DNA from: Candidatus Avelusimicrobium intestinale | GTDB taxonomy: Bacteria; Elusimicrobiota; Elusimicrobia; Elusimicrobiales; Elusimicrobiaceae | Assembly (NCBI GenBank): GCA_902765225.1 | Contig: CACWYV010000004.1 | Coordinates: 1 to 64,000 of the forward strand | Direction of reading: 5' to 3' | DNA length: 64,000 bases | Shown here: one piece after another, positions 49,701 to 50,226 of the stretch | Position numbering within the stretch: position 1 is the stretch's first letter | How the letters are laid out: each line of letters begins with the position of its first letter | Program-made: the position numbers and the translations under genes | Notes under the pieces: model-generated | Seen by the model: the letters and a program-made list of their open reading frames with translations, nothing else | Told to the model about the DNA's origin: nothing | The model's database searches: none

Positions 49701-49732
49701 AAAAAAAGCCCCTCGGTCACCAAACCGAGGGG
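49701..49732 (-). terminator. Intrinsic terminator of the minus-strand structured RNA
   Basis: On the minus strand the stem CCCCTCGGT/ACCGAGGGG (9 bp, 6-nt loop TTGGTG) is followed by CTTTTTTT. Confidence 0.92.
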
Positions 49733-49735
49733 TTT

Positions 49736-50130
49736 ACGGTCGTCCCTTCATGGGATACTCTCCTTCTTAGTTCTACTGCAGTAATGGCAGACTAGCAGGA
49801 ATTACGTTGCCTTCTCGGGAAAACCCGGCCGAAACAAATACATCAACCCGGTTCATCTCCGCCCGAAACACGGCAGGACACTGCCGCTAACCGCCCAACG
49901 TTTCACCAATATGCCCTTCACACAACTCGGGTGCTTGCACCCTCCCAGTCGCGCCGCCACCGAAGACCCGCCTACGTTCCGTCCGCCTCCATCCCGGCAC
50001 CGCCGAAACACAGCCCCGGACGAACCCGCACACACGCTCCGTCAGCCAGGCACTTGGCCACAAGAGAGCCCCAACCTACAAGCCGCCTCTTGTGCGGCAA
50101 CACCTACTGCCTGCGGATGATACAACCCGT
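49736..50130 (-). ncRNA. Unidentified large structured RNA (about 395 nt, plus terminator)
   Basis: A stretch without a credible protein gene has a consensus promoter upstream (TTGACA-16-TATACT) and a strong terminator downstream, both on the minus strand. The predicted first nucleotides (ACGGGTTGTATC, 50130-50119) can pair with the last ones before the terminator (GGGACGACCGT, 49746-49736), with one bulged G and one mismatch, closing the RNA at its ends. Inside are clear hairpins: GC(A)GGCA/TGCCGC (50114-50094), ACAAG/CTTGT (50093-50078), GGGTG-CAAG-CACCC, CGGCAG-TGTC-CTGCCG inside GAAAC/GTTTC, and CGGG-TTTT-CCCG. It is more GC-rich than its surroundings. RNase P, tmRNA, SRP and 6S core motifs were looked for and not found. 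Confidence 0.75.
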
Positions 50131-50136
50131 ATGAAT

Positions 50137-50164
50137 AGTATAAGGGAAAAGTTAAAATTGTCAA
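50137..50164 (-). promoter_or_regulatory. Strong sigma-70-type promoter of the structured RNA
   Basis: Perfect TTGACA (50164-50159), a 16-nt spacer and TATACT (50142-50137) on the minus strand place transcription start at about 50130. It has the only perfect TTGACA -35 among the promoters I marked in the window. Confidence 0.85.
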
Positions 50165-50226
50165 GGGGGGGATTTGAAAAGTTGTTTTCAGATAACTTTT
50201 CCGTTGGAAAAATAAGTATTCACATG

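Follow-up and report, generated by a model that had tools for sequence, protein, structure and literature searches.

A structured RNA family of one gut-associated Elusimicrobiota genus, ending in a five-codon minigene that may dock it to the ribosome

A candidate RNA gene was located on the minus strand of the window (the whole stretch of DNA analyzed, 64,000 nt of a contig of Candidatus Avelusimicrobium intestinale). In the window, glyQ-glyS lie upstream with an ankyrin-like gene between, and the convergent gene encodes an unassigned protein. In most genomes, the RNA is placed between glyS (often with pseudopilin-like genes next to it) and a convergent small lipoprotein gene, which is followed by lipA; the names of these genes were assigned partly by reading the sequences. 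The features of the RNA gene are as follows, in order of transcription.

50137 to 50164, minus strand: promoter TTGACA-16-TATACT, with 11 of 12 positions of the -35 and -10 boxes matched, and CCCC ahead, as in most copies
49701 to 50130, minus strand: predicted transcript of ~430 nt including the terminator, from promoter and terminator positions, with full-length copies in 57 genomes
50103 to 50111, minus strand: 5' arm of the closing helix P1, GGCAGTAGG (arm-swap test, 15 groups, 0/300)
49825 to 49851, minus strand: signature hairpin with a near-invariant GGUUGAU..UUCGGCC tip and a covarying stem (alignment and arm-swap test)
49798 to 49805, minus strand: conserved element of the UAA(G/A)UCC type, here GTAATTCC (alignment A2), sharing two bases with the 3' arm of P1
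49786 to 49799, minus strand: 3' arm of P1, CCTGCTAGTCTGCC (arm-swap test, 15 groups, 0/300)
49760 to 49765, minus strand: Shine-Dalgarno (SD) site AAGGAG, here 8 nt upstream of the ORF, with an SD in 57/57 copies
49734 to 49751, minus strand: five-codon mini-ORF ATG AAG GGA CGA CCG TAA (MKGRP, stop), adjoining the terminator
49701 to 49732, minus strand: terminator hairpin (10-bp stem) and T run, the stem beginning 1 nt past the stop codon

The promoter and strong terminator named in the original prediction were both present (50164-50137 and 49732-49701), and a transcription start at ~50130 is predicted from the promoter position. TTGACA with a -10 box of at least 5/6 matches occurred 13 times in the window genome (1,408,682 bases), and two of these were upstream of a 16S rRNA gene; from a promoter of this strength, high expression would be expected. 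Elsewhere in the genome, CCTTGACA-N16-19-TATACT was matched exactly only once (G000 C4 224683-224713, minus strand), and an apparent protein gene begins ~100 nt downstream of that site. CCCC or GGCC was kept immediately ahead of the -35 box in nearly all copies (50165-50168 in the window), and is possibly a regulator site. The terminator sequence was much better conserved than the remainder of the RNA, and in many genomes (L029, L031, L034 and others) it could also end transcription of the convergent lipoprotein gene. The stretch was GC-rich as claimed, reaching 0.65 in 200-base windows vs. 0.452 genome-wide, and was also G-skewed. Its fold was better than that of 100/100 dinucleotide shuffles (z = -2.6).

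The original prediction had proposed a homologue search in related genomes, a covariation check and an Rfam scan. For the homologue search, relatives were searched at the DNA level, and two copies were obtained with promoter, 5' start, 3' part and terminator in common. One of these was used as a query and returned more copies within the genus, and a covariance model (R1, with rough E-values) built from the 3' part (alignment A2) gave the full set. One copy per genome, 339-538 nt in length, was found in 57 of the 66 genomes of a single gut-associated Elusimicrobiota genus. Nearly all of these genomes are from uncultured organisms and vary in completeness, so the 9 copy-less genomes may be gaps; when those 9 were searched for copies by pattern, the counts stayed at background level. 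No convincing copy was found outside the genus among 248 sampled genomes of the phylum, and the better R1 matches read in other genera (G223, G116, G121) looked like plain terminators, with nothing else of the RNA around them. When the signature-hairpin pattern was run against 84,980 species genomes, 35 contigs were matched, by our own count 29 from Elusimicrobiota or uncultured genomes and 6 scattered others. Searches of viral contigs, phages and plasmids returned no match to the RNA, and a phage or plasmid origin was rejected on this result.

The RNA was inverted in place relative to its glyS/lipA neighbors in five genomes (G003, G027, G017, G066 and G070; loci L088, L085, L107, L103 and L089). 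Three sister-genus genomes (G096, G127, G121) carry glyS next to a pilin-like gene and lipA, and no such RNA separates these genes. Because of the in-place inversions and the empty sister-genus locus, the RNA is taken to be its own transcription unit, and we propose that the gene is vertically inherited and independent. It would have been gained by the genus or else lost outside it, and a sister genus that has the locus without the RNA makes its origin open to study.

Scanned with Rfam 15 at gathering and at relaxed thresholds, the RNA's strand in the window gave one terminator hit at chance level and no other match. A relaxed scan of 15 loci with divergent copies likewise identified no family, and its chance-level matches were mostly bare terminators or flanks. 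Covariance models of OLE, ROOL, GOLLD, raiA and the other Rfam large RNAs matched neither the window nor these 15 loci. The claim that the RNA is not RNase P RNA, tmRNA or SRP RNA was upheld, with no Rfam match to any of them and the first two encoded elsewhere in the genome. RNase P RNA was rejected (no RF00010 match in the RNA; the genome's own copy is at G000 C6 67405-67742), as was tmRNA (no RF00023 match, none found at the RNA by ARAGORN; the genome's tmRNA is at G000 C2 190637-190980). For SRP RNA there was no RF00169 or RF01854 match, and an SRP-type loop was not constant among copies. A genome-wide SRP motif scan gave one possible site (G000 C1 185359, minus strand), which cmscan did not confirm. 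6S RNA was rejected, with no RF00013 match and a predicted multi-branched fold, vs. the single long hairpin with central bubble of 6S RNA. SRP RNA (RF00169, RF01854) and 6S RNA (RF00013) were undetected in the window genome and in 7-11 other Elusimicrobiota genomes, sister genera included; since B. subtilis is missed by the RF01854 control too, low sensitivity may be the cause. A CsrA-sponge idea, raised by GGA motifs in some copies, was dropped as the motifs were not constant by eye. No description of such an Elusimicrobiota RNA was found in the open-licence literature. The RNA appears to constitute an undescribed family, nearly universal in one Elusimicrobiota genus and not found elsewhere.

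As the copies were too diverged for a single global alignment, the fold was tested in subgroups. Changes on both sides of a pair were seen in 28/136 pairs of alignment A4 (13 sequences) vs. 10.5 ± 2.2 in shuffles (0/500), and in 18/82 pairs of alignment A3 (10 sequences) vs. 6.7 ± 1.7 (0/500), so the covariation check found compensatory changes far above shuffled expectation. Shifting the 3' partners by 1-3 columns reduced pairing from 96-98% to 35-49%. The subgroup structures were predicted with RNAalifold on the same alignments and are hence self-favoring; the arm-swap test is free of any predicted structure. In that test, own arms paired better than group-swapped arms, both for P1 (0/300) and for the signature hairpin's outer stem (0/300), and shifted controls gave no signal; the groups, treated as independent of one another, were delimited by eye on sequence similarity. 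These comparisons indicate that the conserved RNA fold is real, and we consider it nearly certain that this is a structured RNA gene. The inference of a new, lineage-specific structured RNA of ~400 nt was therefore borne out by the lack of an Rfam match, the homologues within the genus and the compensatory changes.

The original prediction had also drawn the RNA as folded back on itself, its first 12 nt pairing with the 11 nt ahead of the terminator. That the ends are closed was supported by the arm-swap result for P1, with a different helix from the one drawn: the supported closing helix pairs 50111-50103 with 49799-49786, ~20 nt inward. The window RNA (-8.5 kcal/mol) and two close relatives are able to form the earlier-drawn pairing, which would cover the mini-ORF, but it was not kept family-wide, swapped arms being as good in 108/300 trials.

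The statement that the stretch holds no credible ORF did not hold, as a five-codon ORF with an SD is present at 49751-49734 and such an ORF was kept in 57/57 copies. The same order of SD, AUG, ORF, stop and terminator closed every one of the 57 copies. With tandem AUGs, the second was taken as the start, its distance to the SD being the usual one; the length was exactly five codons in 54 copies and 4, 8 and 8 codons in the other three. The start was AUG in all copies, and the stops were UGA (43), UAA (8) and UAG (6). SD-to-AUG spacing was 5-7 nt in 53 copies, and the distance from AUG to the terminator stem was 18-20 nt in 54. By group, the mini-ORF was present in 18/18 and had five codons in 16/18. 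Dinucleotide shuffles gave a 3-8-codon ORF of this layout in 0.6% and a five-codon ORF in 0.1%, and the RNA's terminator was the only one among the 318 of the window genome (own scan) to have an SD-mini-ORF layout. The comparisons establish the family, its locus, its fold and the conserved geometry of its ORF.

The encoded peptides comprised 36 distinct sequences and were nearly all hydrophilic (L/I/V/F/W/M at 9 of 149 residues). Codon differences were nonsynonymous in 31 cases and synonymous in 7, and changes were even over the codon positions (18/15/20). Because of the 36 peptides and the excess of nonsynonymous differences, the mini-ORF and its length appear to be kept and its sequence to be free. 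Predicted unpairedness was 0.66 for the SD and 0.59 for the ORF vs. 0.35 for the rest of the RNA; for the window's own ORF it was only 0.38. Judged from these patterns, the mini-ORF is very probably translated. In subgroup B (helix 17; alignment A4 columns 416-446), a conserved UCCU just past P1 was the predicted pairing partner of the SD; this pairing may act as a switch on mini-ORF translation, and docking may be regulated there.

We infer transcription and translation of the RNA, its docking on the ribosome and an effect of that docking, and propose the following model. An independent gene with a strong sigma-70-type promoter and an intrinsic terminator would give rise to a large structured RNA, most of it a folded domain closed by P1. 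Past P1 would follow a short, mostly unpaired stretch carrying the SD and the five-codon ORF, with the terminator hairpin immediately behind it. A ribosome would be recruited to the minigene and would sit or cycle between P1 and the terminator hairpin, thereby placing the folded domain at the ribosome, in a position to influence translation. The act of translation would matter and the peptide would not. As translation is apparently selected and the peptide is not, occupation by a ribosome would most simply be read as part of what the RNA does. Counted from the A of the AUG, an initiating ribosome extends to roughly +15 to +17. With the terminator stem beginning at +19 and P1, in several groups, ending a short way upstream of the SD, the gap between P1 and the terminator would be about the size of a ribosome. 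A structured RNA gene that acts on the ribosome through its minigene is our best explanation as a whole, held tentatively and at somewhat under an even chance. Three copies with 4 or 8 codons, the predicted SD pairing in subgroup B and the low unpairedness of the window's own ORF count against it. We give slightly less weight to docking being the main function, and a shade less again to the possibility that this is a new kind of ribosome-docked RNA, anchored by its own five-codon minigene in a ribosome-sized gap and acting on translation.

Another possibility is that the ORF length is conserved because it protects the RNA or governs how fast it decays. In this closest rival, the structured RNA binds protein or base-pairs and the minigene is a stability device: a cycling ribosome shields the 3' end from nucleases, and the RNA level tracks ribosome availability. 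An SD and ORF conserved in every copy, fixed in length and free in sequence, would fit such a device, and a two-codon minigene of axe-txe was reported as a cis stabilizer of mRNA (PMC8708949). However, most bacterial RNA 3' ends are already protected by a terminator hairpin, and shielding alone leaves the fixed five-codon length unexplained; the explanation is rather unlikely. Peptide, attenuator and diverged housekeeping RNA fit worse. A pentapeptide product, acting as a signal or as a small effector, with the structured RNA as its leader, agrees with the ORF being intact in all copies and with nearly all peptides being hydrophilic. It is improbable given 36 different peptides, with mostly nonsynonymous changes spread evenly over codon positions, and five residues are too short for a secretion signal.

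For a leader-peptide attenuator, in which a ribosome on the mini-ORF blocks folding of the terminator and allows read-through into a downstream gene, the contact of the stop codon with the terminator stem would be expected. In the window and most genomes, however, the gene downstream runs convergently; five genomes have the RNA turned around in place, and attenuation does not need a fold of 350-450 nt. This reading is highly improbable. A strongly diverged housekeeping RNA (SRP RNA, 6S RNA) or another known family would match the size, strong promoter and single copy per genome, and Rfam models detected neither SRP nor 6S RNA in these genomes. Both were equally undetected in sister genera that lack the RNA, however, and the large-SRP control misses B. 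subtilis; RNase P RNA and tmRNA are elsewhere, the copies have no Rfam match and the SRP-type loop is not constant, so that we rate this more improbable still. A chance structure or decayed remnant without function is scarcely conceivable with copies in 57/66 genomes, compensatory changes, and an intact SD, ORF and terminator in each.

Several known systems invite comparison. OLE, ROOL, GOLLD and the raiA-motif are large structured bacterial RNAs (PMC12286853). The Elusimicrobiota RNA is similarly large, highly structured and lineage-restricted; unlike them, it has no Rfam match and no phage or plasmid link. To our knowledge, a five-codon ORF at the 3' end does not occur in these four families. 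Dual-function sRNAs (RNAIII/delta-hemolysin, SgrS/SgrT) are also stand-alone structured RNAs with an SD-led small ORF, and we argue from its own promoter, its terminator and the in-place inversions that the Elusimicrobiota RNA is transcribed as a stand-alone RNA. The ORFs of dual-function sRNAs encode longer products of conserved sequence, whereas here there are five codons of free sequence, with 36 products and mostly nonsynonymous differences among them. From tmRNA, which is likewise structured, of similar size and has a short ORF, the RNA differs in having no tRNA-like end and no Rfam match, and the genome has a separate tmRNA. Attenuator leader peptides share the short SD-led ORF directly ahead of a terminator, but the Elusimicrobiota RNA controls no co-directional gene, the downstream gene being convergent in the window and most genomes with five in-place inversions, and a large conserved fold lies upstream of its ORF. 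The minigenes of phage lambda bar and axe-txe (PMC8708949) are likewise very short SD-led ORFs in which translation, and not the peptide, appears to count. An SD and a very short ORF, the sequence features of a regulatory minigene, were present in 57/57 copies; the known minigenes sit in mRNA leaders or phage regions, whereas this one ends a stand-alone structured RNA. We know of no RNA class that combines a large closed domain, an SD, a five-codon ORF fixed in length and free in sequence, and a terminator. The architecture is thus rated as new in kind, though the broad class of large structured RNAs of unknown function exists, and it raises the testable question of whether a structured RNA can work in part by having a minigene translated.
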